From the NCBI GenBank assembly GCA_030765065.1, contig CM060977.1, positions 90,785,795-90,849,794 of the forward strand: a stretch of 64,000 nucleotides of DNA. The letters are read 5' to 3'. The notes under the pieces are model-generated. The model ran no database searches. It saw only the letters and a program-made list of their open reading frames with translations, and had not been told where the DNA came from. Each line of letters opens with the position of its first letter. The stretch's first letter is position 1. The position numbers and the translations under genes were made by a program. This DNA comes from Deroplatys truncata (Eukaryota; Arthropoda; Insecta; Mantodea; Mantidae). Below, piece after piece: positions 1 through 63,639 of the stretch.

Positions 1-579
1 ACTCACCAGAGACCCAGTTGTTTCCAATTTTATTACCAGTCCCAGTATTGTGTTTCTCTGGGGAGAATTCCGAACACCAATTTCTCTCTGGTATGCCCTT
101 TGAGTAGCTGTAATTGAATTCGTAATCCAGTATTGCTTTACAAGGAAGAGTCGTTCATTTAATGTGTACTCCATTTTCACGTTGACTGGAACAATATCTT
201 AAAAACAGTTGCCGACAATGAAACTAACAATTACGAATAAAACATGAACATCTGCGCATCTAGTGACAGGCAGTCGAAACTCCAGTACATTCCGCTTAAT
301 TTGGTGCTAAAATTGGGTCATTGAGTGAACTTCGAACAGAATAATTAAAGAAAGAAATTCGTCAGTTCTTCATAAATCACACTGTGTGCTTAAATCAATT
401 TTTTGTGTAGTAAGATTTTGTCTATCTCTTACAGCTTACCATTCAGCATGAAAAGGACTTCACAAGCTATTCCGAGAAAGTTTAAGATAAACGTTTCAGT
501 TGTTAAAAAAACATCTTAAATACATGGAATTTTAATCAAAATCGTTAGAGCCATTTTTGAGAAAATCAAAATTATCGAA

Positions 580-822
580 GCCTATCATTTTGGTGTAGGG
601 GTAGCGAATCTGCCTCACATTCAAAAGATCCCGAGTTCGAATCAAGGTTAGGGTGAGTTATCCGGATAACGATTTTTTCCGGGGTTTTGCATTATCCTGA
701 GAAGACGAATGTTCAATGACTCTTAAGCTTTATGGACTCTGGGCTCGTTTGAGCATCATTTTACCCATTTCATTCATTAAAACTTGTATATGGCCTAAAG
801 GAGGTTAAACTTCGGGTAAAAA
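580..822 (+). mobile_element. tRNA-derived SINE inserted in R830 copy 1
   Basis: The head resembles a tRNA gene: an A-box-like TGGTGTAGGGGTAGCG and a B-box-like GAGTTCGAATC about 30 bp later, the spacing of an RNA polymerase III internal promoter. An unrelated body of about 170 bp follows and ends in an A-rich stretch near 822. The flanks are the two halves of one R830 copy, which fixes the boundaries to within a few bases. It is not a functional tRNA gene because no acceptor stem can be closed around the head. SINEs of this kind depend on a LINE for reverse transcription; the partner is not identifiable here. Confidence 0.75.
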
Positions 823-968
823 AATGTTCTTATGGAAAACTTTTTCATATAAAGTTGGTGGGAGAATTTTCTTGAAAATCCTCGTGTCGCATCCTTAGAA
901 GACACTGAATTTAAATACCAAGTTCGGTATTTGTCAACTTTTCATTTTTTAAGTTACGTGTTCACACA

Positions 969-1491
969 CCGAGCGCAATGGCTCAGGTGGCAACGTGTGT
1001 AGCTTGATTTCGGGAGGTCCCGGGTTCGATCACCGGCGACCGCCCGCTCTGGCCCATGGTATTTTCGTTGTTTCCCCGGGTCGGCTGGCGATGGTTGGGG
1101 TGTTCATCTTCTACCAGGGCTCTCCTTCCTCTCCTTTCCTGTACCCAGGTGACGGCGGCTGCGGCTGGGCGATGGCTGTGCGCTCTCTAGAGGTTTCTCT
1201 CTTGGCGTCGCTCAGTTAGGTCTCTCCTCCGAGTGGGCTCCGCCCCGGGGGTACTGCCGGAGGTTCGATGGCTTATGGGTAACACCGGGGAACGTAGGAT
1301 GCATTCAATCTCGAAACATTAGGGACCCCATCTGTGCTTGCGCCCGTCGTCATCCGGATCTGGTCGCCCCTCGGGTCTCTCCCATCACCCTTCCCTCCCG
1401 GGGGTTACAGGTAGAAGCACAAGGGGCCGCTTGGCCTGCGTGCGGTGCTCTCACCCGGTTTCGTTCGTATCTTTAACTTTATCTATGGCTC
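969..1491 (+). mobile_element. GC-rich tRNA-derived SINE, family B
   Basis: A GC-rich island of about 520 bp in AT-rich surroundings. It begins with a tRNA-like head (A-box-like TGGCTCAGGTGGCAACG, B-box-like GGGTTCGATCACC). It interrupts R830 copy 1 inside the CA microsatellite. TTCACACA occurs immediately before (961-968) and after it (1492-1499), as expected for a target-site duplication. A related copy lies at 3828-4315 and a head-only fragment at 54930-54995. Short open frames in it carry no recognisable protein. Confidence 0.75.

Positions 1492-1492
<1 letters not shown>

Positions 1493-1540
<48 letters not shown>
1493..1540. repeat. (CA)n microsatellite inside R830
   Basis: About 24 CA units. 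The same position in other R830 copies also holds a short CA tract, so this is an expanded internal microsatellite of the repeat rather than an independent locus. Confidence 0.95.
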
Positions 1541-1545
<5 letters not shown>

Positions 1546-1674
1546 GACCTTCTTCTAAAAATACTGGGTTTTGTTTTATTCAGAGAACCTTAAAACGTGT
1601 ATTTACTGCGAAATCTCGGTATCGAATTTTGAGTGGAATACAATACCCCTACTTCCCTTCCTTACTATACGTAA

Positions 1675-2109
1675 GTAAAGAGCATCGCTATTACATGCTG
1701 TCAGTCTGCAATGTGTTGAGCGATGCTGTTCCCTTCATTTACACAGGAACAGCTGTTGACTTAAATGCCAGTGTTACGAGGCTACAAGCGAATGAAAAAA
1801 GCTTAATAAATATGCGATACAGGTACACTATGGTGACGCATTTAAACCACAATGTCCACTGACTACTCAACCTTGAACACGTAATGGTTACGCAATTTAT
1901 ATAATCCCCCCCTTCAAGGTTTAGGCAGCTCTACAACAATCTTATTCACTTGTTTACCAGCATTCTGTTTTATTTATAATTTTACAGATTGTACACACAT
2001 GTATTGCATAGTATCTTTTGCCGATCGTGAGTTTTATTATTTTGAATTATTATTTTGAATTATTATTATTATTAGTAGTAGTAGTAGTAGTATTAGTATT
2101 AGTATTATG

Positions 2110-2157
<48 letters not shown>

Positions 2158-2964: not shown

Positions 2965-3625
2965 TTTTTACTTTCTCCACCAAAACGAAAAGTGGGATAA
3001 ATCCAAACTTGCTATTTGATTTTATATCTTTCAAAGATGTGATACGAAGATTTTCAAGAAACTCCCCCACCCCAACTACTCTTTAGACGGAACCTTTTTG
3101 TAAATTTTAATTTTCTAAAAAATGGCTGAAACGATTTTGATTAAAATGCCATATATGACAGATATTCACATGGCAAATAAAATGTATATCTTCAATTATC
3201 TGTGAATAGCCTAGGAAGTCTCTTCATTCGGAAGGAACTTTGTATAATCTTGTATAACTTATAAACGTTAAGCGTATATCTCTTTAAAACACATAGTTTA
3301 CTTAAAATAAGCTTTTTTGTGGAATAAGCAGTTATTAAAGGTTCGAATTGTTCAATACTTCGTCTTTCTCTTAAGTCCTATCAACATTCAGTTGTTTGTC
3401 GCGATGTCATGGAAACAGTATGGAATTTTAATGCAGCATACAGTGTCCAGTTGTTAAACATGCGACTATCGCTGTTCCCTTTGTATCTATAATGAAATGT
3501 GTAATGTAGCTATTTCTGTAAAGATTTATTTGTATTAAATGAAGTAGATCGAAAAATAAGCTTTAGTAAGAACACTAATAAAGATAGAGGGTAGAGAAAG
3601 TCATGTCAATGTATCACATTCACAT
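2965..3625 (+). repeat. R830 copy 2 (internal deletion near its start)
   Basis: It starts TTTTTACTTTCTCC, skips about 150 bp of the usual first block and resumes at ACGAAAAGTGGGATAAATCC. It then follows the family to GGTAGAGAAAGTCATGTCAA and the final T-run. It has subfamily A diagnostics (GAAATGTGTAATGTAGC; CAGTTGTTTGTCGCGATGTC). Confidence 0.85.
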
Positions 3626-3631
3626 TTTTTT

Positions 3632-3727
3632 TATTTATTCAGGGAGTTCCAATTCGCGTACCTCCATTGAAATCTAAGTATCGAATTTGTTAGCGAAATA
3701 CAGTACTTCCTAGAGAAAGTAAAAATG
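3632..3727 (-). repeat. R830 terminal fragment, head-on to copy 2
   Basis: It begins at the T-run that ends copy 2 with TTATTCAGGGAG and ends CTAGAGAAAGTAAAA, so it is only the last ~100 bp of a minus-orientation copy. The junction with copy 2 falls in an oligo-T run. Confidence 0.75.
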
Positions 3728-3827
3728 TACTGCAAATATAAGTACTGTGCCTACAATTATAATATACATATCAAATTAAGACGAAATCCCAATCAATAAG
3801 AATGAATAAGAAAACATCATTGCTCTC

Positions 3828-4315: not shown

Positions 4316-4687
4316 TTCAAGAGAAGAAACTTAAAACCAAACCTGCATTTAACACTTATAGCAATAATTAATTGCGACATGTATAAAAATGAAGTTCTAT
4401 GGCTTCTTTTCTAGATAATGATATCGTCGTGACAGGAATATCATGACAGCTGACGGAAATAACTATGCAGCGCGATAGGGAACTGGTAATTTCCACAAGA
4501 GCCTATTTCTGTGTTAAGGCTGCAAGCGATTCAAGTTCGCTTGGATGACATTCTTTTCCTGGTTCTTGTTTCTCCTATAATTTCACAGCTTCCTGAGGGA
4601 CCGCATCTTCATCGTCACTTGGGATCTGTATGTTCATCTCGCTGACGTTTCTGAAGATACAACCACACTGCAACCTAATCTCTATCT
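4316..4687. other. Unassigned stretch
   Basis: Nothing recognised between the SINE and the next R830 copy: no long open frame, tandem repeat or tRNA-like structure. Confidence 0.6.
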
Positions 4688-4783
4688 TCTAAGTAGGGGA
4701 AGTAGGTATTACATTCCGCCCGAAAAGTCGATACCGAGATTTAACCAGGAATACACGCCATTGAGGCTCCCTGAATTAAAAAA
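4688..4783 (+). repeat. R830 5' fragment abutting copy 3
   Basis: It contains AAGTAGGGGAAGTAGGTATT, then the block GTCGATACCGAGATTT, and breaks off in the A-run after CCCTGAATT. Exactly there a minus-orientation R830 starts, suggesting that one copy inserted into the A-run of another. Confidence 0.75.
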
Positions 4784-6010
4784 TCGTATGTGTTACATTC
4801 ATATGACTTTCTCTACCTTGTATCACGCATTAATGGCTGCAAAAACTTACCTTGTGAAAGCTTATGTTTTTATCTACTACATTTAAATTCAAATAAATCT
4901 TTGCAGAAATAGCTACATTACACATTTCGTTATAGATAAAAAGAGAACAGCGATAGTCAAATGTTTAACAACTGGACGTTATGTGCTGGACTTGTGTACT
5001 CTTTCCATGCAATCATGAGAAACAACTGAATGTCGACAGGACTTTATGAGAATGACAAAGTATTGAACAATTCGAACTATTGTGACATGTGAGGTGTTAA
5101 TATGTTTAAGTTGGCAACACGAACCGGAATATAATGTAATAGTAGTGGGGGTTGAAAACCGGTTCTTCAGTAGTAGCGTCTGACGCTAAGTGAGTCTCTT
5201 GGAATGTAGTGAGCAGTGCAAAATGTAGGAAGGGACGCTCCGCCGTCAGCAAAAGGTACTCTGTATCTCTATTTATTCAATATATATACTTACCATCTAA
5301 ACTTTTACTATGTAGATTCTTTAAGTAGTTAGATCCTTCTTTTCTTTCACACCGTGATTTAGGCATATTTTTAGGAATTTCAGGTATTTAAGAACTTAGT
5401 TGAGCTCGCCCCTGTCGGACCTCGTGTAGTTTGTGATGTGTTTGTAAACCGGTACCTCACTCTACCCCCCGTGAGTTGTTAAAATGTAGAGGTTATCTAG
5501 CAAAAAAGTTATTTGAAATAAATTGTGTATTTTAAAGATATTCACATTTTTGTGTAGTACGTTTTCGTCTATCGCTTAATGCTTATCACACAAGATTATA
5601 CAAAATTCCTTCCGAATGAAGAGGGCTTCACAGGTTATTCCCAGAACATTCAAAATATACATTTTATTTGTCATGTAAATATCTTTATTATATGGTATTT
5701 TAGTCAAAATCGTTAGCGCCATTTTTGACAAAGTTTAAAATCGAAAAATAATTAGTAAATGCTATTTGGGGTTCAGAGATTTTTAAAAAACTTTGTGTCG
5801 CATCTTTGGAGGGTGCAGAACTTAAATGCCAAATTTGGTATTTATGCAACGTTTCATTTTTTGAGTTATGCTGTTTATAGACACACGCACACGGATCTTT
5901 TTCTAATTGTTTTTTCTTCAGGGGGCCTCAAAACACTTATTTCAGTGAAATCCCGTTATTGAATTTTTGGGTGGAATACAAGATTTCCCATACATACTTA
6001 AGTAGAAAAG
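4784..6010 (-). repeat. R830 copy 3 (nearly complete, interrupted)
   Basis: It starts TCGTATGTGTTACATTCATA and continues through GCAGAAATAGCTACATTACA and AGCGATAGTCAAATG to about 5083. It is replaced by unrelated DNA to about 5503, then resumes with AAAAAAGTTATTTGAAATAA and runs to TTAAGTAGAAAAGAAT. Without the insertion it would be about 800 bp. Confidence 0.85.
5084..5503. mobile_element. Unclassified ~420-bp insertion in R830 copy 3
   Basis: This segment is absent from all other R830 copies, so it entered copy 3 after that copy was made. It begins TGTGACATGTGAGGTG and ends near GTAGAGGTTATCTAGCA. It holds a TATA-like TATATATACTTACC and two GGTTC/CCGGT motifs. TG at the start and CA at the end would suit a solo LTR, but I see no target duplication, so the class is open. 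About 30 bp of R830 seem to be missing at the site. Confidence 0.4.
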
Positions 6011-6206
6011 AATCTAAAAATTTTTACCTGAGGCGAGGTATTAAAATCCAGCCATATAGTCCAGAATATTACTTGTCTATATGCTATAAGCCATCAATTT
6101 ACGAACGTAATTTTCTCATATCCGGTTGATTTCGAACTCAAATTTGTTGTCCAACTAAAATGATACAAAGTGCAAAGCAAGTGAACATGTCCATGAACAG
6201 TCAGGC

Positions 6207-12984: not shown

Positions 12985-13291
12985 TAAACTGTCAATGGTT
13001 CGAATTGTTCATTGCCTTGACATTTTTAAGTTCTTTCAACATTCAGTTGTTTCTCGCGATGTCATGGAAACAGTATGGAATTTTAAGGCCAGCATATAGC
13101 GTCCAGTTGTTAAACATTTGACTATTGTTCCCTTTGTATATATAACGAAATGTGTAATGTAGCTATTTCTGCAAGGGTTTATCTCTATTAAAATTAAGTA
13201 AACAGAGAAATAAACCTTCGTAAGAATAATTTGTGTATCCAGTAATAAACGGTAGAAGGTAGAGAAAGTTACGTGCATATAACACATCAGA
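12985..13291 (+). repeat. R830 copy 4 (3' third only)
   Basis: It runs from AATGGTTCGAATTGTTCATT through TTTCTCGCGATGTCATGGAA and AGCATATAGCGTCCAGTTGT to the usual end AACACATCAGA plus T-run. Subfamily A; the first two thirds are missing. Confidence 0.9.
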
Positions 13292-17514: not shown

Positions 17515-18331
17515 TCTGATGTGTTGCAATTGCATGAGTTTCCCTACTCTTGTACAAACTATTTTCACAAAAGCTTATTCTCCATTTACTTCATATTAAT
17601 CGAGATAAACATTTGCAGAAACTATCTTATTGCTAATTTTCTTGTAAGTGCAAGGGGAATATGGTAGGCTTTAAGCGATAGTCAAATCTTTTAAGAGCTA
17701 GTTGCTATGTGGAGCATTCCATTCTCTTTGCATGTCCAGGACATAAAAAAATTAATAACGAATTTCCATTTGAGAAAAAGTATAAGTATTGGAAAATTCA
17801 AACAAATAACAAGGAATATCTCGGAAATCGTTCCCTCCCCCCCCCCCAGAAAATGTATATAACATAAATTTTGTGTTTTAACGAGATCTAAATTTTTTGT
17901 GTAGTAAAGTTTTGTCTACCTCTTACGGTTAACTAGTTATGCAAAAGTCATTCAGAAAGAAGAGGGCTTTTGAGGACATTCCCAGGAAATTCAAGACATA
18001 GATTCCATTTGCCCTAAAAATATCTTAAACATATGATATCTGTTATGAATATCCGTGGTCTGGGGTGGGGGATTTTCTTGACGATCTTCGTGTCGCATCC
18101 TTGGAAGATACTAAACTCAAATACCAAGTTTGGTATTTATCCAACTTTTAGTTTTTGGGATATAGACAGACAGACAGACACACACACACATACACACAAC
18201 GGACATGTTACCAAAAATGCTTTATTTGGATTCAGGGCACCTCAAAACATGCATTTCCGGTGAAATCTGGGTACAGAACTTTTGTTTGGAATACAGTAAT
18301 ACCCATACTTACTACACTTAGTAGAGAAAGT
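17515..18331 (-). repeat. R830 copy 5 (full length, subfamily B)
   Basis: It starts TCTGATGTGTTGCAATTGCA after an A-run and ends CTTAGTAGAGAAAGT before AAAAC. It carries the subfamily B block (GGGGAATATGGTAGGCTTTA; TCTTTGCATGTCCAGGACAT) in place of the A block, a C-run at about 17830-17848 and a short CA tract. Confidence 0.95.
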
Positions 18332-19299
18332 AAAACATGCTCTAACATTCCTACCGATGATGGTTCCACCACCAAAGGGTACTTATAGGGTACGCAAAAT
18401 TTCCAGAGCTTGGAAAATTGTCGGGGGAGGTTAAGGAAGTCAGACGTTCCGCCGATGTTTCACATGCTTTTGCATGAATGTAGGGATGTTTCATCCCTCA
18501 TTAAGAATAGCCGGCATTGCGTTCCACCCAAAAATTCTATAACAAGATTTTAATGTGAGGCAGTATTTTAATACCTGAATAATTTCAATTGTATTTTATA
18601 ATAAGTAAATTCAATAACAGCCCGCCTTGAAACAATATGTATGTAATAATTATTTGAATTGATGTGACAGTCATTGCAAATGCTTATTTTTATTGCAAAC
18701 ATCTTTAATAATGTTATGTGAATACATTACATACTCTAATAATGCAAGAGCTGTGAGAATAACAAGTTTTAAGTTGCTAACAATGAGGTAATAATGAGTT
18801 ATTCTTGTAGCAATAATGAGTTTGGGAGTTTGAAAGTTACTAGTCATGATTAAAGAAACGATAATGTAATTTCTGTGACAGTTTAAAATTAGACAATCAA
18901 CAGCAAAGAAAAGCTTTAAGTAAAATGCAGATATTCTATTGGTCTAGAATTAGCCCATCAGAGACTTGAAATACCGAAGCTTACAGGTTTAACGGTAGAA
19001 ATAATGTTCAGTTGCTGGCAAACCTTGGTAGTGACCAGATGGAAGATGTGTTCTCTACAGAAATATTACGTGTAAAACGTAAAATATGTTTACGCGTTAG
19101 CTAAGTGAAAGTATTAAAGAATCTCACAGCTCTTAAAAAGTGTAGTGATATTTAACTTGTGCAAAGATAAATAAAAAAGAAGTTAAATTTAAAAAATTAA
19201 AATTTGTGTATGTCTACAATAATTGTCGTACTGCACCCTGCCTAAGAAATACATGACTCCACAAACATTACTGACGCAGCCGAGGCAAATTCAAACATA

Positions 19300-19351: not shown

Positions 19352-19639
19352 GCAGTCCTTAATAACAAAGTTAAATAATATAGTGTAAAACTTGGAGTGT
19401 AACAACATAAAATACATCTTAAAATCAGCTTCTCATACGTAGCAGCATATTGCGTAACAACAGTAACTATTACGTAATCAACAAAATTCAAACCGACGCC
19501 CAAAGCGTGTGGCAAACTTCTTAAACAAAGTAAACTCCAAGAACAATACTTCTTCAAATAGGCTTCCAATGCATGAAGCTTAATAAATTACGTAAAAATA
19601 TTACGTAATAAATCATCTACATCAAATGAAAATGCACAT
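18332..19639. other. Unassigned AT-rich stretch with (AT)n tract
   Basis: A scrap of R830 (GCGTTCCACCCAAAAATTCT, near 18508) is the only element sequence. An (AT)n microsatellite lies at 19304-19348. No coding signal; the nearby 92-codon frame merely ends in the AT tract. Confidence 0.6.
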
Positions 19640-20350
19640 TTTCAGGCTTCCTGAATAAAACATTTCTAGGAAAAGGTGCGCGCGTGTGTGTGTTATGTAG
19701 GTGTGTCCGTCTGCGAACAACATAACTCAAAACGAAACGTCTTTAATTACCAAACTTGGTATTGAAGTTCAGCATTCAACATGAATCAAACATGAAGACA
19801 TTCAAGAAAATCACCCCACCCCAAACTAACCATTACAAAGAAAACTTTTTCTTACCTTTGAATTTTTCAAAAATAGCTTTAACGATTTTTATTAACATAT
19901 TATGGGTTGAAGTCCACTTTATTCGGAATGACTTTTGTATGGTTTTTAAACCGTAAGTGATAGACAAAATCTTACTGCATAAATAATATAGTTGTCGTTA
20001 AAGTTCTGGATTTATGTCAAATACAAATTGTTGTAGCTTTAACCACTCCCGAGATATTGTTTGTGTATGGTTTGATTCTTATGCTTTTTTTCAGGTGTGA
20101 TGTTGCTATGCATTTCTCTAGTTGCCATGTGTAGAACATGTGATTTCAAAGACATCACATAGCCACACGCTTTTTAAAAATCTGACTGTCGCTTTGACCT
20201 ACTCTATCCTTGCAATACCTAGAAGGGAATGTGACTGTGAATGTGTAATGAAAGATTATCTCTATTAACAAGAAGTAGATAAAATAATAACTTTTGTATG
20301 ACTATATTGTTGAAGAGTGAGTAGAGAAAGCTGTGTGAATGCAACATATT
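19640..20350 (+). repeat. R830 copy 6 (diverged)
   Basis: It retains the family order: CTTCCTGAATAAAACATTTC, ACATAACTCAAAACGAAACG, ACCAAACTTGGTATTGAAG, CCCCACCCCAAACTAACC, ATAGCTTTAACGATTTTTAT, and the end GAGTGAGTAGAGAAAGC. It is the most divergent copy here and fits neither main subfamily. The first ~100 bp are missing. Confidence 0.75.
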
Positions 20351-37277: not shown

Positions 37278-37322
37278 TACATTTTTTTGTAATACGTTTT
37301 CATCTGTACCTTAACAGTTATA

Positions 37323-40410: not shown

Positions 40411-40534
40411 TAATGAATGATAATAAAGTATTTGGAAAATAATGTTTTGTTATTTTCTAAAAATAATTATCGATACTTTATGTAAAAATACGCCTCGTAT
40501 TTAGACGGGAGGGACCGACCCCTCGAGAAGCTAA

Positions 40535-40800
40535 AAAACATCGAGCATTTTTGCATGTAAAGGATAGTTCGAGGTAGGAGAATATTCTTGAAAATGTTTG
40601 TGTCGTATCTTTGGAAGATGCTAGGCTTAAATAAAAGTTCTATATTTAGCTGACTTTATGTTTTCCAGTTTTGCTGTTCACACACACGCGGATTGAGCGA
40701 TTCTCAAAACCTGTATTTCCGGTGAAATCTCGGAATCGAATGTTTGGGGTAGAATTTAATGCTTCCCCTACTTACTATACATAAGTAGTAGAGAAAGTAA
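40535..40800 (-). repeat. R830 copy 10 (terminal third)
   Basis: It begins near TTTTTGCATGTAAAGGATAG and ends AGTAGTAGAGAAAGTAAAC, with CTTCCCCTACTTACTATACA before the end. The longer start is missing. Confidence 0.9.
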
Positions 40801-41741: not shown

Positions 41742-42566
41742 ACTTTCTCTACCACGTACATAGTAGGTAGAGCAGGTATTGCATTCCAACCGAAAATTCT
41801 ATACCCAGATTTCACCGGAATCATAATTTTAGGCCCCTTGAATGAAAAAAGTATTTTTAGAAAAAGTTTCGTGTGTGTGTGTGTGTGTGTAAACTGCATA
41901 GTTTAAAAACGAAAAGTCGGATAAATATCAAACTTGGTATTTAGGTTCAGTATCTTCCAAAGATACGACATGAAGGTTTTCAAAAAACTCTCCCCATCCC
42001 AAACCACGCTTTACATGGAGCATTGTTCGAAATTTCTGATTTTCTAAGAATGGCCCTAGCGATTTTGATTAAAATTCATATACCTGTAGGAATAGTTTGT
42101 GAAGTTCTCTTCATTCAGAAGGAGTTTTGTGTAATCTTGTATAACTGGTAAACGTTAAGCGATAGACGAAAACACACTACAAAAAAAATGTAGTTCTCCT
42201 GAAAACCCACTATTTATTTCAAATAAGTTTTTGTAGCATCAGCCGTTTCCGATATATCCATTATATATGGTTCGATTTGATCAATACTTCGTCATATTTT
42301 AAGTCGTATCGATTTTCAGTTGTTTCTCGCGATGTCATGGAAACAGTATGGAATTTTAAGGCCAGCATATAGCGTCCAGTTATAAGCATTTTACTATCGC
42401 TGTTCTCTTTGTATCTATAACGAAATGTGTAATATAGCTATTTCTGCAAAGGTTTATTTCGATTAAAATGAAGTAGATCGAAAAATAAATTTTATATAAG
42501 AATAATTTGTGTACCCACTAATAAACAATAGCGGGTAGAGAACGTCGTTTGAATGTAACACGTCTG
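41742..42566 (+). repeat. R830 copy 11 (full length, subfamily A)
   Basis: It starts ACTTTCTCTACCACGTACAT, has a (TG)n tract at 41873-41891, and ends TAACACGTCTG before a T-run. 825 bp. Confidence 0.95.
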
Positions 42567-48113: not shown

Positions 48114-48963
48114 ACTTTCTCCACTACGTATAGTAAGTAGGGAAGGTATTGCATTCCATCCAAAAATTCGATACGGAGATTTCCCCGGAAATACAGGTTT
48201 TGAGACCCCTGAATACAAAAATATTTTTAGAAAAAGGTCCGTGTGTATGTCTGTGAACATAACTCGAAAACGATAAGTCGGATAAGTACCAAATTTGCTA
48301 TTTAACTTTAGTATCTTCCAAGGTTGCGACACAAGATTTTCAAGAAAATCCCTGCACCCCAAACTACCCTTTACATGGCAGATTTTTCGAAATGTTTAAC
48401 TTTCTAAAGAATGACTAACGATTTTGATTAAAGTACCATATGAAATATTTTTACATGACCAATAAAATGTGTATCTTGAATTTTCGGAGAATAGCCTGTG
48501 AAGTCCTCTTCATTCAGGAGAAATTTTGTATAATATTGTGTAACTGGGAAACGTTATACGATAGACGAAAACGTACTACAAAAAATGTAGATCTCTTTAA
48601 AACACACGATTTATTTCAAATACGTTTTTTGTGTGTCAAACCATTTCTGAGATATCCGTTACTAAAGGTTGGAATTATTCATTTCTTGGTCATTCACTTA
48701 AATTCCTTTCAACATTCAGTTGTTTCTTGCAATGTCATAGAAACAGTATGGAATTTTAAGGCAGCATATAGCGTCCAGTTAAACATTTTACTATCGCTGT
48801 TCTCTATGTATCTAAAACGAAATGTGTAGTGTAGCTATTTTTGCAAAGGTTTATTTGGATTAAAATGTAGGAGATAGAAAAATAAGCTTTAGTAAGAATA
48901 GTTTGTATACCCGCTCATAAACGATAGAGGGTAGAGAAAGCCATGTGAATGCATTACATCAGA
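48114..48963 (+). repeat. R830 copy 12 (full length, subfamily A)
   Basis: It starts ACTTTCTCCACTACGTATAG and ends GCATTACATCAGA before TTTTT. 850 bp. The 129-codon frame at 48440-48829 lies wholly within it and is not conserved in other copies. Confidence 0.95.
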
Positions 48964-49548: not shown

Positions 49549-50041
49549 TTGGATGTGTTACATTCCCATGAAGTTAATCTACTTGTTACTTAGCTTGTAC
49601 AAACTCGTACAAAACTTTATTTTTCCATCTACTTCAGGTTAATCCCCATAAATTTTCACAGAAATAGTTTACTTACACGTTTAATTTTAGTTAAAGTGGG
49701 ATAAAGGAAACCGAAGCGATAGTCAAATGTTTAAAAGCGGGTCGCATATTTTGGTCTTGAAATTCCCTACTCTTTCCACGACATCGCGAGAAACAACTAA
49801 ATGATGACAGCAGCACTTAAAATGATAAAAAGTATTGAAAAACTAAAACCAATAAACAAGTGTATCTCGGAAGTGGCTAATGCCACAAAAAAGACTTATT
49901 CGAAATAAATTGTGTGCCTTAAGGAAATCCACATTTTCTCTGTTTTTTTTCTATTTCTTATGGTTGATTATTGTGCAAAATTAAAGAGTTCATTCAGAAT
50001 GATGAAGACTTCACAGGCTATTCCCAGAAAATACAATAAAC
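49549..50041 (-). repeat. R830 copy 13 (first 60%)
   Basis: It starts GGATGTGTTACATTCCCATG and breaks off after GCTATTCCCAGAAAATACAA. It mixes A-like and B-like features (CGACATCGCGAGAAACAACT with GGAAACCGAAGCGATAGTC) and is relatively diverged. Confidence 0.8.
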
Positions 50042-51316
50042 ACGTATTGGAGCAAAGAGCTCTACTTCTGGGCTATACTTAAATTTCTAGTCCATATTTT
50101 ACACTTCATAATATTAACTGTCACAAAAAAATGGTAAGCTAACATCCTGTAGTCATAGAATTCGAATAAGATATACAGTGAGGGAGTTGACTTTATAGTT
50201 CACGCCGTCTATTACTGAATGTTCGCGCCCTGCTGGATACTTAACGGACGCTAGTGGTACAACATTTAAATCGGCACGTTATGCATTTTGTTGCAGCCCA
50301 GTGAAGGGGAAGCGTCATCGTGATGGATAGACACACATATAAGCCCTGTCTATCCTAGCACTGTATAGCATTCAGTCCGTAATCGTAAGTTAGGATATAA
50401 TGCAATAGAATTTAATGCTTTGTCATCACCGTACGAAAATCTTTTGGGTCTGTCCATAGATCCGTAAAAATGCCTCAACTCTTGTACATTTTACGGCCAA
50501 ACCGTAAAAGTTGGCAAGTATGCCAGCGGTAGTCAAACGATAGAAGGTAATTTATCACCAACAAGCCCAAAATAAAATGATAGGGCGTATGAAATAATAT
50601 AAGTAATATAATATAAAGTAGTTCTGAGAGGGAAGGATGCGGATCAAGGAATGAGAAGTATACATATGTTTTGCTTTCAGAAACTCAAAATACAGTTGAC
50701 ATTTCGCTGTTCTTTTGTTTCACAAAGATAGTCCTGCCAACTCAGGCTGAGGCAGAGGGCAGTACTTTTGTTCACGTGTTGCGCATACAGAGTGCTCGAC
50801 CTCGGTGAATTTCTTATTCAAGGCAAGTGAGAGAGAGGCAGAAAGTTCGAGCAAAGGTTTCGGGATCATATCCGTCTGGGGGCGTAGTCTACTTGTCTTC
50901 TGATTTCAACATCAGATATTATCATACTCAACAATTGGTGACAAAAGTCCTTCCACTTCAATTGTGCATTCTTAAAAGCACCCATGGTATTCTCTGGTTT
51001 CTCTGTGTCTTTGAAATGAGGAACTTATTCATTAATTTTTCGACGATGGTGGAAAGTAGAAATTCTTGCATTCAGTACTGGTAACCTACCTACCGGCGTG
51101 TTTTGTTTATTTTACCGCACGTATGTGTATGAACTATAATAAATCCAATGATTTTTATGTATTTATTATTGCAGACATGGAATATAACCATATATCATAG
51201 CTGAATTTTACCATTTAAATATTTCCTGGATCTTCTGTTCCTTTTTATTTGTTAATATTTACTTACGATTTAATTTACACCGCAGGCAAGTCTGAGCTGC
51301 AGGTTATTCACGTTTT
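50042..51316. other. Unassigned stretch
   Basis: Nothing recognised. Short frames (50827-51084) show no domain. Confidence 0.55.
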
Positions 51317-52131
51317 ACCTTCTCTACTGTCTATAGTAATTAGGGAAAGTATTGTACTCCACCCAAAAACTCGATGTCGAAATTTCACCGGAAATGTATG
51401 TTTTGAGGCCCCTGAACCCCCCAAAAAATCATTTTTAGAAAAACGTCCTTGTGTTTGTATGTGAACAGCATAACTAAAAATCGAACTGTCGCCTAACTAC
51501 AGAACTTTTCATTTAAGTTCAGTATCTTCCAAAGATGCGACACGAAGTTTTTGAAGAAAATCTTCCCCTTGATTTTCTAAAACAAAATGACTAGATTTTT
51601 ATTAAATGTCATATATTAAAGATGTTTACATGGAAAATAAAATTATATCTTGAATTTTCTGGGAATAGTCTGTGAAGTCCTCTTCATTCGGAAGGAGTTT
51701 TGTATAATCTTGTATAACTGGTAAACATTAAGCGATAGACGAAAACGTACCATATAAACATGTATATCCGTTAAAACACGCAATTTATTTCAAAAAATTT
51801 TTTGTGGCATAAGCCATTTCTGACATATCCAGTATTCGTGGTTCGATTTGTTTTCAATGCTTGGTCATTCTTTTAAAGTCAATATCCAGTTGTTTCTCGC
51901 GATTGCGTGGAAATTTTAAGGCCAGCACATAGAGTCCAGCTCTTAAACATTTGACTATCGCTATTCTCTTTGTATCTGAAACGAAATGTGTAATGTAGCT
52001 ATTTTCGGAAAGATTTATCTGGATTAAAATGAAGTACATAGGAAAATAAAATTTCATAAGGATAATTTGTATATCTGCACACTAATAAATGATAGAGGGT
52101 AAAGAAGGTCATGTGAATATAACACATCAGA
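51317..52131 (+). repeat. R830 copy 14 (full length, subfamily A)
   Basis: It starts ACCTTCTCTACTGTCTATAG and ends ATAACACATCAGA before TTTTT. It lacks the short block between GAAAATCTTCCCC and TTGATTTTCTAAAA. 815 bp. Confidence 0.95.
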
Positions 52132-52523
52132 TTTTTAGGGCAAAATTCAAGAGTGGGCAATCGATTAGTTGGCCACCAATGTTTATGTTGGTGAATTTTA
52201 TACTGCAACCTCTATGTGGAACAGCTATTAGTCAATTATTAATGCAGTACACATATGTTAGGTGCAATAGAGAATTTCGGAAGTAAACAAATACTCCCTT
52301 TCGTCTCGTTCTCCAATGATGCACTTACAGCATTTGTGTCTCAATATATTATTTCAGTATAATAATTATCTGCGTGTAAGAGGACGGAAGCATAGATTGG
52401 TGGGTGGCTATACAAAATACTGCACTGTAAATTTTAATATAAGATTTGGTTTGCCATATGCCACTGATGCAGAATTCACAGTACAAAACCGCAAATACAG
52501 TGTCATTTCTAAACAAAATAAGA
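52132..52523. other. Spacer between two inverted R830 copies
   Basis: 392 bp with no recognised element. Copies 14 (+) and 15 (-) form a large inverted pair around it, 3' ends facing each other. Confidence 0.6.
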
Positions 52524-53222
52524 TCTGATACTTTCACATGACCTTCTCTACCCTCTAAATTTATTAGTGGGTATAAAAATTATTCTTACTAAGACGTATT
52601 TTTCTATCTACTAAATTTTAATCCAAATAAACCTTTACAGAAATAGCTACAGTACACATTTCGTTATAGATACAAAGATAACAGCGATAGCCAAATGTTT
52701 AACAACTAGACGCTATATGCTGGCCTTAAAATTCCATACTGTTTCCATGACATCGCGAGAAACAACTGAATGTTGACAGGACTTTAAGAGAGTGACGAAG
52801 TAATGAACAATTCGAAGCATTAATAACGGATATCTCAGAAATGGCTTATGCCATAAAAAACTATTTGAAATAAATTATATCCTTTAAAGAGATACACATT
52901 TTTTTGTGTATTACGTTTTCGTCTACCGCTTAGCGTTTACCACTTATACAGGATTATACAAAATTCATCCCGAATGAAGAGGACTTCACAGGCTATTCCC
53001 AGAAAATTCAAGATATATGTTTTATTTGCCATGTAAATATCTTTAATATATGGGTTTTATTCAAAATCGTTGATCATTTTTAGAAAATCAAAAATTTCGA
53101 AAAATGGTCCATGTAAAGGGTAGTTTAGTGTAGGGGGATTTTCTTGAAAATCTTCGTGTCGAATCTTTGAAAGGTACTGAACTTAAATACCAAGTTTGGT
53201 GTTGATCCAACTTTTCGTGCTG

Positions 53223-53291
<69 letters not shown>

Positions 53292-53367
53292 CCGGTGAAA
53301 TCTCGGTATCGAATTTTTGGATGGAATGAAACTACTTCTCTGCCTACTAGGTACTGTTAGAGAAAGT
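52524..53367 (-). repeat. R830 copy 15 (full length, subfamily A)
   Basis: It starts TCTGATACTTTCACATGACC and ends CTGTTAGAGAAAGT before AAAAG. It carries the longest internal CA tract of the family (53226-53288). 844 bp. Confidence 0.95.
53226..53288. repeat. (CA)n microsatellite inside R830 copy 15
   Basis: About 30 CA units with one CTTA interruption. Confidence 0.97.
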
Positions 53368-53985
53368 AAAAGTGCATAAAAATATAAGTAATGTGCCTAA
53401 TGATATATATATACAGAAGAAACAATTGTCTGTTTTGACAATTTAGTCTTCCCAAAAACAGAATTCCCAGCTGCTGTTCGCATATTTCTCGTGCAATAGC
53501 CTTAATGCTTCTTTTTTTTCCTTTAGACAAAAGAGTTCACAGGTTTCATTCATGCGGTAGCTACGTGAAGTCAATGACAGTCAGGAAGAGAACAGAACCA
53601 TAAAGTGTTGATGTAAGATCTCTGTGGCATGTGCGATAGTAAACACCGTGCGTGGACCTGCTAATTACTGCGAAATGTCTGTCGCAAGGCGAGTCTGTAG
53701 GTTACAACAGAGGATTCGCAAATAGAACGCGATTTGTGACACTTCTCACTGACGTAATCTACGGAAGAGAGAATGTGCTTGCACGTGAGTGAGTTAATTT
53801 TTAGACGATCATTTTAGCGTTATTAGTGGACCTCAAATAAACCAGCGTCAGATTCTCTGAGAGGATGTAAGTTAACGGATGGCGAAAATTGTGCGGTGGG
53901 ATTAATTGGGAATTACTATTTAATTTCACATGTTTTATCATTGTACGCACAATTAAATATATTTTTAAAAGCCTGATGCGATAAA
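53368..53985. other. Unassigned stretch
   Basis: Nothing recognised. Confidence 0.55.
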
Positions 53986-54126
53986 TTCACATGTCTTTCC
54001 CTATCCGCCATCGTTTATTAATGGGTATACAAACTATTCTTACTAAAACTTAGTTTTCTATCTACTTCATTTAATACAAATAAACCTTTGCAGAAATAGC
54101 TACATTACACATTGCCTTATAGGTAC
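53986..54126 (-). repeat. R830 copy 16 (first ~140 bp)
   Basis: From TTCACATGTCTTTCCCTATC through CTATCTACTTCATTTAATAC to ACATTGCCTTATAGGTACAA. Confidence 0.9.
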
Positions 54127-54220
54127 AATCTAGAATTGTGCACGTAAAATAGGATACCACTGCATGTGCAAAAATGTAATAAACTGATATACACACCTCC
54201 TCATTACTGTAGATACATAC

Positions 54221-55433: not shown

Positions 55434-56292
55434 TCTTATGTTTTGCACTGACGTGACTTTCTCTACTCCTGTATAAACTACTTTTATGAACTCTTAGTCT
55501 CCATATACTTCATGTTATGAGATAAACATTTTCAGAAACTATCGTATTGCTATTTTCTTGGAAGTGCAAGGGGAATATGGTAGGCTTTAAGCGATAGTCA
55601 AATGTTTTAAGAGCTGGTTGCTATGAGGAACATTCCATTTTGTTTGCATGTCCAGGACATAAAAAAACGAATAACGAATTCCTATTTGAGAAAAAGTATA
55701 AGTATTGGAAAATTCAAACAAATAACGAGGAATATCTCGGAAATGGTTCACTCCACAAAAACAAATGCCACGTAAGTGTGTGTTTTAACGAGCTCTATAT
55801 GTTTTGTGTAGTAAAACTTTGTCTATCTCTTACGGTTTACCAGTTATGCAAAAGTCATTCAGAATGAAGGGGAAATTTGGGGACATTTCCAGATAATTCA
55901 TTATATACATTTCATTTCCCATGAAAATATCTAAAACATATGATTAATTTAATGAAAATCGTTAGAGCCATCTATGAGAAAATCGAAATTTTCGAAAAAT
56001 TGTACTTGTAAAGGGTAGTTCTGGGATGGGGTGATTTTGTTGAAAATCTTCGTGTCGCATCCTTGGAAGATACTAAACTCAAATACCAACTTTTGGTATT
56101 TATCCAACTTTTCGTTTTTGAGTTTTGCTGTTCACGGACAGAGGCACACAGACACACGCACGGAAATGTTTCCAAAAATGCCTAATTTAGATTCAGGGTG
56201 CCTCAAAACATCTATTTCCTGTGAAATCTCGATATCGAATTTTTGGGTGGAATACAGTAAGTCCCCTACTTACTATACGTAATAAAGAAAGT
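55434..56292 (-). repeat. R830 copy 17 (full length, subfamily B)
   Basis: It starts TCTTATGTTTTGCACTGACG and ends ACGTAATAAAGAAAGT. B-specific GGGGAATATGGTAGGCTTTA and TTTGCATGTCCAGGACATAA. 859 bp. Confidence 0.95.
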
Positions 56293-57021: not shown

Positions 57022-57822
57022 TACGATGTATTACATTCACATATTTTCTTCACCCTTTATCGTTTATTAGTGGGTATACAGACCATTCCTACTAAAGCTT
57101 GTTTTTCTATCTACTTCATTTTAATCGAAATAAACATTTGCAAAAATAGCTACATTAAACATTTAGTTACCCATACAAAAATAATTCCATAGTGTTTCCA
57201 TGACATCACGAGAAACAACTGAAAAACGACAGAACTTCAAAAGAAAAAAGTACTGAACAATTCGAACCGTTAATAACAGATATATCTGAAATGGCTTATG
57301 CCACAAAAAGGGTATATGAAATAAATTTCGTTTTAAATGATGTATATTTTTGTGTAGTACGTTTTCGTGCATCACTTAACGTTTACCAGTTACACAAGAT
57401 TATACAAAATTCCTTCCGAAGAGGACTTCAAAGACTATACCCAGAAAATTCATGATATACATTTTTTTCATATAAATGTCTTTAATATATGATATTTTAA
57501 TCCAAATCGTTAGAGCCATTTTAAGAAACTAAAACATTTCGAAAAATGTTGTTTGTAGAGGGTAGTTGGCGAATTTTCTTGAAAATCCTGATGTCACATC
57601 ATTGGAACATCTGAACTTAAATACCAAGTTTGGGGTCTATTCCACATTTCGTTTTTCAGTTATGCTGTTCACACACTCACAGACAGACGCACACACCAGG
57701 ACCTTTTTCTAAAAATGCTTTTCTTGGATTCAGGGGATCTCAACACTTGTATTTCCTGTGAAATCTCTATATGGAACTTTTGGGTGGAATGCAATATCTT
57801 CTTTACCTACTACTGAGAAAGT
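57022..57822 (-). repeat. R830 copy 18 (full length, subfamily A)
   Basis: It starts near GATGTATTACATTCACATAT and ends TACTACTGAGAAAGT. A ~45-bp deletion removes the AGCGATAGTCAAATG block. 801 bp. Confidence 0.9.
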
Positions 57823-57849: not shown

Positions 57850-58643
57850 TTAAACAGAGATTTTACCGGAAATACATACTTTGAGGTACTCGAAATAAAG
57901 CATGTTTGGAAACATGACCATGTGTGTGTGTGTCTGTCAGTCTGTGAACAGCATAACTGAAAAAGGAAATGTCGAATAGACACCAAACTTTGTACTTGAG
58001 TTTACTATCTGCCAAGGATGTGACACGAAGATTTTCAAGAAAATTCCCCACCCCAGACTACGATTTACATGGAACATTTTTTTGAAATGTTGAGTTTCTC
58101 AAAAATGACTAACGATTTTGATTAAAATATCATAACTTTAACATATTTTCATGGCAAATGAAATGTATATCTTGAATTTTCTGGGAATGTCCCCAAAACC
58201 CCTTTTCATTCTGAATGACTTTCGCATAACTGGTAAACCGTAAGAGATACACAAAATTTTACTACACTAATAATATAGATCTTAAAACACACAATTTATA
58301 ACCTGTACACTTTTTTGTGGAGTGAACCATTTCCGAGATATTTCTTGTTATTTGTTTGAATTTTCCAATACTTATACTTTTTTTCAAATAGGAATTCGTT
58401 ATTGGTTTTTTTTTTACGTCCTGAACATGCAAAGAGAATGGAGTGCTCCACATAGCAACCAGCTCTTAAAATATTTGACTATCGCTTAGAGCCTACCATA
58501 TTCCCCTTGCACCTACAATAAAATTAGCAATAAGATAGTTTCTGCAAATTTTTATCTCATAACATGAAGTATATGGAGAATAAGCGTTTGTAAAAATAGT
58601 TTGTACAAGAGTAGAGAAAGTCATGTGAGTGGAATACATCAAA
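57850..58643 (+). repeat. R830 copy 19 (subfamily B, first ~60 bp missing)
   Basis: It begins at AAACAGAGATTTTACCGGAA and ends GTGGAATACATCAAA. Lies back to back with copy 18, separated by 27 bp. Confidence 0.9.
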
Positions 58644-59498: not shown

Positions 59499-59500
59499 TA

Positions 59501-60598: not shown

Positions 60599-60602
60599 TA
60601 TC

Positions 60603-60670
60603 CGCAGCTGTGCTTTGTGTACAAGTAGTTAGGGCTGCGGGTTCCTAGTTCGAATCCCACTCTCTTCTGC
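60603..60670 (+). mobile_element. tRNA-like (SINE) fragment
   Basis: A B-box-like TAGTTCGAATCCCAC preceded by GTTAGGGCTGCGGGTTC; no clear A box. Weak. Confidence 0.3.
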
Positions 60671-60724
60671 AAGTTCTATATCGGCAATATATACTCTACT
60701 TTACGAGAGCGATATTAAATAATT

Positions 60725-61982
60725 TTAGAATGCCATGTTTTTAAAAACAAATGAAATTTGTTTGTACTTGACAGCTACTTTCTAATATTTTGCGAGTTGA
60801 TTGCCGTGTAGTATGTTCGATTTGCTCTAATGGTTTCTTAACCAACATCGTTTAAACATTATGATATTCACCCAAAAATGAATTTGATTAAAGAACATTT
60901 CCGGGCTATGATATTTTTACGATTTTAAAACGTCATTAACGCCTAAACAATGTGAACTTAGGCTTAGAAATGCATTTGAAAGAAGCCGCATCTAAGGTAA
61001 CAATTTATAATTGGTACAGCGAATTCAAAAGAGATTGATTTTGTTCTTAGTGATGAATTTCGTGAAGGACGCCCAAGAACTGCTGTTACTGATGAAAATA
61101 TTGCCGCTGTTCGAGCACTGCTTGAAGAAGATCGACGGTCATCTTATGAATTTATTCGGGCGACATTGGGCATTGGTACGAGCCAAATCCAAAACATTTT
61201 ACATCAACAGTTACCTACACGTGAGAAAACTTTGTTGTCGATGGATTCCACATAAACTGTCCCGCGATCAAAAACAACAACGCATTGATTGGTGGAGAAA
61301 AACTCTGGAAAAATTCAAGGCGGCACTTCAAATTTGGTTTGGAACATCGCTACTGATGATGAATCTTGGATTTATTGTTATGATCCTGAAAAGAAAAGTC
61401 AATTAGCTGTATGGGTATTTCGAACACAACCTAAGCCTACAAACGTCCGACGAATTTGCAATACTGGTAAAAAGATGGTTCCTAGATTTTTTCTATAACC
61501 ATATTGCTACTATATAGCATTAGAAGATAGACGTACCATTACTGTTGATTGGTACACAAATGTCTGTTTATAGCAAATTTTTGAAAAAGTTCGTGAAAAA
61601 CGCCCAAAAGAAAAAAATGTTACATCATGACAACGCATCGTCGCATACAGCAAAACTAACAACTGATATTTAGATTTCCTAAAGGTCTGCACCATGGACC
61701 CGCCACCATACAGCCCTGACCTAGCACCTTGTGATTTCTTCTTGCTTCCAAAAATTAAACATAAAATGCATGGAATCTCTTTTTCGTCATCAGGTAAACA
61801 TTATAAAAACCTGGTTTCTGAAGTGTCTCAGGAAGAGTGGTATCATTGCTTTAAGAACTGGTTTCATCGAATGCAAAAATGTATTAATATTAAAGGGTAA
61901 TATTATGAAAAACAATATTATCATTTAATTTTTTAAAACTAAACTTTGTTTGATTTTCTAAAAATGTTCAGTATCATCCTCG
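60725..61982 (+). mobile_element. mariner element, near full length
   Basis: The right end is well placed: the reverse complement reads CGAGGATGATACTGAACATT and is followed by TA (61983-61984). The left end is only approximate, with AATGCCATGTTTTTAAAAAC matching the right TIR poorly. It contains one transposase pseudogene of normal length. Confidence 0.75.
60878..61900 (+). pseudogene. mariner transposase (frameshifted; catalytic Asp residues retained)
   Basis: It starts MNLIKEHFRAMIF (first HTH). In shifted frames come NWYSEFKRD, REGRPRTAVTDENIAAVRAL and LGIGTSQIQNILHQQL (second HTH), then CRWIPHKLSRDQKQQRIDWW, IATDDESWIYCYDPEKKSQL (first Asp), HHDNASSHTAKL (second Asp), PPYSPDLAPCDFFLLPKIKH (third Asp) and FKNWFHRMQKCINIKG at the end. 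About 340 codons, the usual size. At least five frameshifts or stops. The 'GIG.SQ...ILH' and 'WF.RMQ.CI' wording marks the mariner group common in insect genomes. Confidence 0.85.
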
Positions 61983-61984
61983 TA

Positions 61985-62808
61985 CGTATACGTGTATATA
62001 CGTACAGAACAACTCGTAACTGATTAAGATTTGTACCACCCTTGAAACGGCTGTAACATACAACCAACATTACCGGCGCGCCTTGCACATTTTCGAGATA
62101 TAACTTCAGGAAGTCGGCTGGAATTAGGAAACACTGTGTGTGTGTGCGTGTGTATGTGTATCATTCGTATGAGTTCAAAAGACAACTCAATTTTTTCCAA
62201 ACACAATATGGTATATGATTCCACACGTTTCTCTAAAAATGCTATCTAGATACAGCATACTGGCTTCTATGACCTAAGACAGAATAGATCAAAAGTACAC
62301 CATGTTCGTAGTGCAAATTATTCTCGCTTTACACATATATTTGGTTTTCTTTTTTGCCTCGTGTAATAGACCTATTTTATATTTTTCTGGCACTTTATAC
62401 CTGTATTAATAATTGAATTTTGTGCAAGGAAAAACTACTGTCACTGCAACTGTGAGCTTAATTAGTCAATACAGGTGGAACAAAAGGCAATGTATACCAG
62501 TTACCAAAACTATGGCAGGCAGTGATAGAAGCATTTAGGTAATGATTTGAAATATGATTCTGCTATAAAGTAAACTTTCATTCAAATAGAAAATATGTTT
62601 ACGGTTGTCAGGTTTTGTTTATATTCGTACTGTATTGAAATAGAAAAAAAGCTGTTTTTTAATACTGAAAACATTCCTTTTGTGATATATCTGGCTTTTA
62701 AACTAAATTGACAAAATATGTGAAAACCAAAGCCGCAAAAGGTTCAGAAGCAAGAAGATAGAATTGCTGCATTCGATCTAAACCTCTAATGTGAAACTGT
62801 GGGAAAAA
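61985..62808. other. Unassigned stretch
   Basis: A short (TG)n run at about 62134-62152; no gene or classified element. Confidence 0.6.
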
Positions 62809-63639
62809 TCTGATCTGTTACATTCACAGGGCTTTCTCTACCTCTGTCGCTTATTAGTGGGTATACAAGCTATTCTTACTAAAGCTTATTTTCTATATAC
62901 TACATTTTAACTCAAATAAATGTTTGCAGAAATAGCTACATTACATTTCGTTATAGATACAAAGAGAACAGCGATAGTCAAATGTTTAAGAACTGGACGT
63001 TATATGCTGGCCTTAAAATTCCATACTGTTTCCATGACATCGCGAGAAGCAACTGAGTGTTGAAAGGACTTTAAGGAATAACCAAGTAATGAACAATTCG
63101 AACCATTAATAACGATACATCAGAAGTTACTGATACCACAAAAAAGTTATTTGAAATAAAGTATGTGTTTTAAAGGGAAATACTTTTATTGTGTAGTACG
63201 TTTTCGTTTATTGCTTAACGTTTGCTAATTATACAAGATTAAAGAATACTCCTTCCCAATGAAGAGGAGTTCAAAGGCTATTCCCAGTAAGTTCAATATA
63301 TAAATTTTATTTTTGATGTAAATGTCCTTAATATATGGTATTTTAATCAAAATCGTTAGAACGATTTTTTTAGAAAATTAAACATTTCGAAAAATGTACC
63401 ATATAAAGGGTAGTTTGCGGCGGGAGAATTTTCTTAAAAATCTTCGTGGCACATTCTTAGAAGGTGCTGAACATAAATACCAAGTTTGGTGTTTATCCGG
63501 CTTTACATTTATGTGTAATGCTGTTCACAGAGAGACGGAGCTTTTACTAAAAACTCTTTTTTTTTATTGAGGGTTCCCCAAAACATGTATTTCTGGTGAA
63601 ATCTCGGTATCAAATTTTTGTGTACGTGGTAGAGAAAGT
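62809..63639 (-). repeat. R830 copy 20 (full length, subfamily A)
   Basis: It starts TCTGATCTGTTACATTCACA after AAAAA and ends GTGGTAGAGAAAGT before AAAAA. The CA tract is nearly lost. 831 bp. Confidence 0.95.

Follow-up and report, generated by a model that had tools for sequence, protein, structure and literature searches.

R830, an abundant interspersed repeat of the mantis Deroplatys truncata, can be named as a probable non-coding Helentron derivative

We analysed a window of 64,000 nucleotides from Deroplatys truncata (GCA_030765065.1, contig CM060977.1, positions 90,785,795 to 90,849,794, forward strand) and conclude that R830, the ~0.83-kb repeat that fills much of it, is with a probability of about 95% a HINE, i.e. 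a non-coding, non-autonomous Helentron (rolling-circle transposon), presumably mobilised by Helentron protein. The assignment is based on recurrent ends of Helentron type, on insertion into T-runs without detectable duplication beyond the Ts and on Helentrons in the same genome that carry the same terminal repeats. The class of the repeat, which a sequence-only reading of the window had left open, can thus be named, and R830 is akin in kind to DINE-1 of Drosophila.

Abundance and copies of R830

Searching the window with an nhmmer profile built from nine full-length copies, we obtained 29 matches covering 14,242 bp (22.3%), whereas ten dinucleotide-shuffled versions of the window gave none. 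The sequence-only reading had put the share at about a fifth; its count of twenty sites is slightly too low, but the observation itself stands. Also borne out are the nine full-length copies of 800-860 bp (796-858 bp by profile span), their occurrence in both orientations (four on the forward and five on the reverse strand) and the lack of a shared reading frame, the longest stop-to-stop frames of the nine copies (62-133 aa) lying on differing strands and at differing positions. The profile matches in the window, with further evidence in brackets, are:

382..977, -, R830 fragments, two matches (382-675 and 832-977)
1519..1680, -, R830 5'-end fragment
2970..3619, +, R830 with both ends, internal deletion right after the 5' repeat
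3629..3720, -, R830 5'-end fragment
4682..4792, +, R830 5'-end fragment
4785..6011, -, R830 in two blocks (5500-6011 and 4785-5080) with ~420 bp of other DNA between
12990..13291, +, R830 3'-end fragment
17515..18331, -, full-length R830, subfamily A; outer flanks in common with the 38930 copy (flank comparison)
18502..18550, +, R830 fragment
19630..20349, +, R830 without the first ~75 bp
31738..31874, +, R830 5'-end fragment
31861..32629, -, R830 without 3' end
35542..35918, -, R830 3'-half fragment
37257..37341, -, R830 fragment, weak (E 0.0028)
37966..38337, -, R830 5'-half fragment
38930..39773, +, full-length R830, subfamily A (alignment)
40520..40798, -, R830 5'-end fragment
41742..42566, +, full-length R830, subfamily B
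48114..48963, +, full-length R830, subfamily B
49552..50045, -, R830 3'-half fragment
51317..52131, +, full-length R830, subfamily B
52522..53367, -, full-length R830, subfamily B, long CA/GT tract (tandem-repeat finder)
53973..54128, -, R830 3'-end fragment
55435..56292, -, full-length R830, subfamily A
57023..57822, -, full-length R830, subfamily B
57851..58641, +, R830 without about the first 50 bp, subfamily A (grouped by eye in the alignment)
62809..63639, -, full-length R830, subfamily B

Across 40 genome samples of 1 kb taken at fixed positions, R830 covers 17.5% of the sampled bases (95% bootstrap 9.9-25.8%), in keeping with the earlier suspicion that it is a major component of the genome; a single non-coding rolling-circle family thus appears to occupy ~0.4-1.1 Gb of a 4.29-Gb genome. 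For the analysis of ends and flanks we used a genome set of 40 copies, which are the best-scoring matches to one subfamily-A copy (query included). Two genome searches gave 16,777 and 16,272 first-look candidates, of which 40 were scored in each, and these totals do not represent a copy number; the ends of subfamily B were checked in the window only. That R830 is a mobile unit and not a satellite, as had been proposed, is supported by boundaries that recur genome-wide and by nested copies that reveal pre-insertion sites. The question of a head-to-tail organisation had also been raised: the profile matches in the window include no such array (the tandem-repeat finder reads periods of up to 500 only), and a satellite was ruled out by copies interspersed on both strands. 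Outside the window, single head-to-tail R830 neighbours occur directly behind the 3' end of another copy at locus L019 and upstream of a Helentron (Y, see below). Exact R830 ends or core gave no match in viral and prokaryotic contig collections, and a search of literature text for the terminal 11-mer returned no transposon paper by title among those listed.

Ends, insertion sites and nesting

The two ends of R830 carry an 11-bp inverted repeat, which on the 3' side lies ~22 bp inside the end of the element, as exemplified by one copy in the window:

38930..38963, +, 5' subterminal repeat ACTTTCTCTAC, also one arm of the 5' hairpin
39741..39773, +, 3' subterminal repeat GTAGAGAAAGT, degenerate copy of the 3' palindrome, end CAGA, then Ts

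With at most one mismatch, the 5' repeat is found in 33 and the 3' repeat in 31 of the 40 genome copies (both in 27), compared to 0.4% and 1.0% of random places in the sample DNA, so that the fixed ends noticed in the window hold genome-wide. In 26 of these 31 copies, 21-22 bp separate the 3' repeat from the aligned end. The extreme ends read ACTTTC (5') and CAGA (3'), and the 22 bp outside the 3' repeat are conserved in subfamilies A and B as well as in Helentrons. The consensus 5' end folds as DNA into one hairpin (z -2.57; 4 of 200 shuffles fold as well), i.e. R830 has a 5' inverted repeat nested in the subterminal inverted repeat (subTIR) as in DINE-1. At the 3' end the consensus contains the palindrome ATGTG-7nt-CACAT, for which 82.5% of cells are paired across 16 ends, versus 11-51% when slid. 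Covariation was not found here (82.5% paired cells versus 83.2% in shuffles); decaying copies would give the same result, which lends the palindrome no support. Compared with shuffles, the short 3' end shows no excess of folding (z -0.53), although a more extended 3' stretch does (z -2.89).

R830 inserts into T-runs without a detectable target duplication beyond the Ts. All 31 genome copies aligned to model position 1 have T at -1 and -2, and in the 19 copies that align up to the model end, T has a frequency of 84-100% at each of the six positions right after the 3' end. Four or more shared flank bases occur in 1 of 30 matched pairs versus 6.9% of 870 mismatched pairs in the genome set, and in 1 of 10 versus 5 of 90 in the window, so that a duplication beyond the Ts was detected in neither. 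Within the window, joining the flanks produced no empty site, only the shared outer flanks of the 38930 and 17515 copies. In the genome set, 36 copies have both ends, and six of these lie nested inside another R830. When the flanks of these six are joined, they align to an uninterrupted copy; this gives six pre-insertion sites, three of them clean.

One T-run, at model position ~632 of R830A, lies directly behind the 3' end of four of eight Helentrons (X, L117, L118 and L120; both flanks were read for X only). The same holds for 3 of 40 R830 copies, namely L018, where both flanks show it, and L032 and L035, where it is seen in the right flank alone. Of 270 background T-runs with at least five Ts in the samples, 2 are this site. 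The right flanks of the four Helentrons are 8-22% different from each other, which suggests that each Helentron entered another R830A copy in an event of its own. We tentatively consider R830A to contain a landing site that its own family prefers, a reading whose chances we put somewhat below even. If it is true, the family builds its own safe target, self-nesting feeds its expansion, and composite units could be mobilised when the ends of nested copies pair wrongly. We had also considered X, Y, L032 and L035 as proof that a wrong 3' or 5' end had been used. This was dropped as unproven because the left unit of X matches that of Y (92.4%) no better than the two match some other R830 copies (up to 95.4% and 96.6%), and because L032 and L035 have visibly different right-hand pieces.

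Partner Helentrons and the class of R830

The same genome contains Helentrons of 10.2-10.4 kb with terminal repeats of R830 type and one long Rep/PIF1-helicase/endonuclease frame. The two that we read, X and Y, carry ACTTTCTCTAC and GTAGAGAAAGT; the 3' copy is present in 6/6 further Helentrons, and the last 33 bp are identical in all eight examined (X, Y and the six further ones at the predicted positions). X lies inside an R830A copy and has its start at X 1608, while Y starts at 1575; an earlier placement of the 5' end at X 928, which assumed a tandem duplication, was overturned by this nesting. BLAST matches to the first 680 bases of the intervals originally taken for X and Y belong to the outer R830A copy and were left out of the evidence on the Helentron. 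Helitron_like_N and PIF1 score well above cut-off. Exo_endo_phos_2 is marginal (cut-off 27.4 bits): a 264-aa piece of Y scores 27.9 bits, a 1,264-aa piece 23.8 bits, and a separate frame of X, whose long frame is interrupted there, 23.2 bits. The AP-like endonuclease domain is thus seen, marginally, in one (Y) of the two. The Rep motif reads RGSPHEH in both; in Helentrons, a rule in PMC4067079 expects S in RG(S/L)PH.H, together with a second signature, F/Y-w/l/y/k-R, near motif 2. X and Y have YQR before that motif, of which the first and third letters fit the signature and the middle one does not. Among the partner frames listed, 15 are at least 2,300 aa long; other Helitron_like_N matches exist in the genome, many with internal stops. 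In the window itself, a partner search of 10 of the 42 frames of at least 100 aa against Pfam gave DUF659 and Transposase_1 above cut-off, weak matches in two frames and none in six.

The R830 5' end stands at the start of X and Y, whose match to the model covers positions 1-703; a few inverted pieces extend it to 732. At the 3' end only the last 33-35 bp align (a profile match over 35 bp; BLAST identities of 88-94% over 33 bp in 4 of 9 listed R830 copies), and neither of the two Helentrons contains a match to model positions ~735-840 (~100 bp). R830 is therefore no plain deletion derivative of the X/Y copies. Its direct parent may be another Helentron subfamily that contains the 735-840 region and is perhaps dead, X and Y being cousins. 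We rate this at just under an even chance: it would fit the further Helitron_like_N matches, many of them with stops, but the first part of X is close to R830, with an identity to 45 copies of up to 95.1% (median 87.8%, gaps left out).

Three other classes share single features with R830. It does have inverted repeats, and DINE-1 was formerly filed as a MITE (PMC2374699), so that we considered a cut-and-paste MITE in which ACTTTCTCTAC would be the true inverted repeat, the outer 22 bp target or junk, and the target duplication short. Such an element is very improbable given that these 22 bp are conserved in both subfamilies and in Helentrons, that the inverted repeat does not sit at both extreme ends, that no duplication beyond the Ts is seen, that a Rep-helicase element has the same ends and that the pre-insertion sites of nested copies contradict it. 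Still less credible is a derivative of a canonical Helitron (5' TC, 3' CTRR, insertion between A and T): the rolling-circle class and a 3' palindrome would suit it, but ACTTTC and CAGA ends and a T-run target do not, and the partner Rep motif has S, the Helentron letter under the rule in PMC4067079. High copy number, lack of coding capacity and T-rich flanks would also be expected of a retroposon, e.g. a SINE or a LINE 3' tail; we give this as little credence, as we found no tRNA and no Rfam match at gathering score in the window, a T-run stands at both ends of R830, and these ends also occur on a Rep-helicase element.

For R830 as a HINE, features of the ends and partners suggest the following course. 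Helentron protein would recognise the terminal hairpin and repeat signals and nick R830 at its 5' end; one strand would be peeled off and copied by rolling-circle replication until copying halts at the 3' signal, and the product would be joined into T-rich DNA. R830 probably spread mostly in older bursts, since copies of one subfamily differ by about 14-24%, and the Helentron seems to have been active more recently, two copies being 97% identical over 9.15 kb. With dense R830 relics and seemingly recent partners side by side, end signals, target choice and self-nesting become testable.

Comparison with known systems

In grasshopper repeatomes, Helitrons are reported to account for 7-20% (PMC7486953), which is a class total over several clusters, whereas R830 is a single family. 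Helitron2 of algae and fungi (FoHeli), as described in PMC5148889, resembles R830 in its asymmetric terminal inverted repeat, its 5' hairpin and its insertion at Ts, given for Helitron2 as between TTTT and T or C; it is described as having no endonuclease domain, while Helentron Y has a marginal one. HINE-Mo and Helentron-Mo of the mite Metaseiulus occidentalis (PMC4067079) share with R830 and its partners the subterminal repeats 2-4 nt from the 5' end, a 3' palindrome (putative in R830), flanking Ts on either side, empty sites that show no duplication and the Rep/helicase/endonuclease partner. There the distance from the 3' subTIR to the end is 38-60 bp (~22 bp in R830), and HINE-Mo are described as simple deletion derivatives of their partner, whereas ~100 bp near the 3' end of R830 are absent from the two partners read.

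The Drosophila HINEs DINE-1/INE-1 (PMC4067079, PMC2374699) are likewise non-coding highest-copy repeats, with subterminal inverted repeats, a 5' inverted repeat in the 5' subTIR, a 3' stem-loop (putative in R830), an internal microsatellite and a preference for TT; their terminal repeat is 13 bp long, compared to 11 bp in R830. For D. yakuba and D. virilis, PMC2374699 reports no intact one among the ten best RepHel matches, whereas the mantis genome has long open partner frames. For DINE-1, stringent identification gave 334-6,297 copies per species across 12 Drosophila genomes (PMC2374699), against which stands the sampled R830 share of ~17.5% of 4.29 Gb.

Extent and abundance of R830

A profile built from the nine R830 copies named in the sequence-only reading found 29 matches in the window, with a total of 14 242 bp (22.3%), but none in ten dinucleotide-preserving shuffles of the window. 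R830 is real and sharply bounded, and the earlier estimate of about a fifth of the window holds. As had also been described, the nine copies are near-constant in length (796–858 bp by profile), occur in both orientations and have no reading frame in common. An identity comparison of these copies separates two subfamilies, A (38930, 55434 and 17515; within-group identity 83–84%) and B (48114, 57022, 51317, 41742, 52524 and 62809; 76–81%), which are 68.5–73.3% alike, but whose ends are the same. A further copy, 57851, falls with subfamily A when the alignment is judged by eye. Two subfamily A copies (17440–18514 and 38745–39851 with their flanks) also match each other outside the element, over ~185 bp on the left and 78 bp on the right, which points either to duplication of a larger unit or to a single other repeat that houses both copies. 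The window also contains coding fragments of mariner-like and other transposases.

Other features in the window
13963–15005, open reading frames on the minus strand: 42/84-bp minisatellite, 25 units, 81–87% matches
16130–16657, minus strand: transposase remnant, weak Tc3-type HTH match below the cut-off
22442–23374, plus strand: 311-aa frame with a Pfam DUF659 match (41.8 bits), which we take to be a hAT-like transposase
36699–37088, plus strand: transposase remnant, Transposase_1 match over the cut-off
11944–12241, 26499–26782, 30198–30483, 34047–34340 and 41380–41544, both orientations: second interspersed repeat of ~280 bp, copies 80–93% identical, one of the five pieces shorter

The assembly holding the window comprises 4.29 Gb in 818 contigs. 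We sampled it at twenty fixed 1-kb points and twenty more, all at round numbers on the sixteen large contigs. R830 was present in 16 of the 40 samples and made up 17.5% of their bases (95% bootstrap 9.9–25.8%), by arithmetic ~0.75 Gb (0.42–1.1 Gb) of the genome, so that the suspicion of a major genome component is borne out.

End anatomy and insertion sites

The 5' end of R830 consists of a T-run followed by the 11-mer ACTTTCTCTAC, which forms one arm of a hairpin that includes the following ~20 bases. At the 3' end (16 ends aligned) we find GTAGAGAAAGT, then ~22 bp with a small palindrome, ATGTG...CACAT, and finally CAGA and a T-run. Judged from these alignments the inverted repeat is asymmetric, as its 3' copy sits ~22 bp inside the end and its 5' copy directly at the T-run. 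The 3' palindrome draws no support from covariation. Its short end is no more stable in folding than shuffled sequence (z −0.53), whereas an extended 3' stretch is (z −2.89).

We scored 40 genome copies, the best matches to subfamily A copy 38930 (itself among them) rather than a random draw. A GT-rich tract is internal to 32 of the 40, and 36 reach both model ends; at least two Ts immediately precede the aligned 5' end in 31 of these 36, and TTT is found at the 3' end in 32. Six of the 36 are nested in further copies of R830, which allows a comparison of the joined flanks with an uninterrupted relative: three cases are clean (L008, L011 and L018), with the element inside a T-run and no duplication past the Ts, and three (L026, L029 and L037) are more diverged, with a less clear insertion site. 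Nor did target duplication beyond the Ts emerge from flank comparisons, either among genome copies (1 of 30 same-copy flanks alike versus 6.9% of 870 different-copy pairs) or among window copies (1 of 10 versus 5 of 90), where the single alike pair belongs to a copy with untrimmed 3' Ts. At one R830 locus (L019), and also upstream of Helentron Y (L073/L074), copies stand head-to-tail, immediately after the 3' T-run of another copy.

Helentron partners and a candidate landing site

We counted 152 matches to Pfam Helitron_like_N among those genome candidates that were scored. One group of them (model 8–190, ~105 bits) has long open frames, at least 15 of 2300 aa or more among the matches listed, and two of its members, X and Y, were read through (97% identity over 9.15 kb). 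Both begin with the R830 5' end (X 1608, Y 1575). Their first part aligns to R830 model 1–703, more R830-like pieces, some inverted, follow downstream up to model 732, and both terminate in GTAGAGAAAGTTATGTGAATGTAACACATCAGA plus Ts, giving lengths of 10 386 bp (X) and 10 158 bp (Y). The terminal 33 bp are identical in six of six further Helentron copies, examined solely at the predicted 3' end. X encodes Herpes_teg_N, DUF6570, Helitron_like_N, PIF1 and helicase C-terminal domains; both carry the motif RGSPHEH and fully fit the Rep signature with S before PH, while a second published Rep signature fits partially, reading YQR. In Y, whose domain scan covered the C-terminal half, the C-terminus matches the endonuclease Exo_endo_phos_2 with 27.9 bits (264-aa piece) or 23.8 bits (1264-aa piece; cut-off 27.4); the X frame is broken in this region, and a separate frame matches at 23.2 bits against the same cut-off. 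The Helentron frame (L071–L074) also holds a charged tandem repeat with a period of 63 bp (21 aa), and several of the listed frame lengths (2261, 2324, 2345, 2387 and 2408) are spaced at multiples of 21 aa. Further Helitron_like_N matches (G000, L041–L060) score as high as 196 bits, but the majority of the best ones contain internal stops; they hint at one or more additional, older groups of Helitrons.

Four of eight Helentrons (X, L117, L118 and L120) are directly followed by subfamily A sequence (R830A) from model position ~632; for X, the one of the four whose left side was read, the left flank is the matching R830A part. Their right flanks are 78–92% alike, which argues for separate insertion events. 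As background, 2 of 270 T-runs of at least five in the 40 samples were the position-632 site, perhaps an undercount given the short windows. In L018 an R830 copy is nested at this same site with both flanks seen. In L032 and L035 the right flank alone shows R830A ~630–876 directly behind R830, next to unrelated left DNA, an arrangement that would result if replication ran on beyond the 3' end or if R830 inserted adjacent to a fragment; Helentron Y has R830A on its left side only. Given the small sample and the choice of the eight Helentrons for their long frames, we regard the T-run at R830A ~632 as a lead to a self-targeted landing site.

Class and relation to known elements

According to the published description (PMC4067079), Helentrons and HINEs are defined by terminal anatomy plus a partner. 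Since the end anatomy and partner of R830 match this definition, R830 is most likely a HINE. Its ends and targets, the partner and the termini common to both are observed directly; we infer that it is moved by this Helentron protein, which would nick at the 5' signal; rolling-circle copying would follow and halt at the 3' hairpin signal, and the product would be inserted in T-rich DNA. R830 model positions ~735–840 are absent from both X and Y, so that the direct parent may be another subfamily. A text search for the terminal 11-mer gave no paper on transposons among the titles listed, and searches of the Helentron/Helitron literature, with repeat libraries outside their scope, gave no such family among the matches listed. 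For specialists, the interest lies in the scale of R830, in the presence of long-frame partners beside it and in a landing site that may exist. Under the published rules R830 and X/Y are of the same family (11-bp identical subterminal inverted repeat) and probably of different subfamilies (criterion: 80% over the last 60 bp, of which the final 33–35 bp align here).
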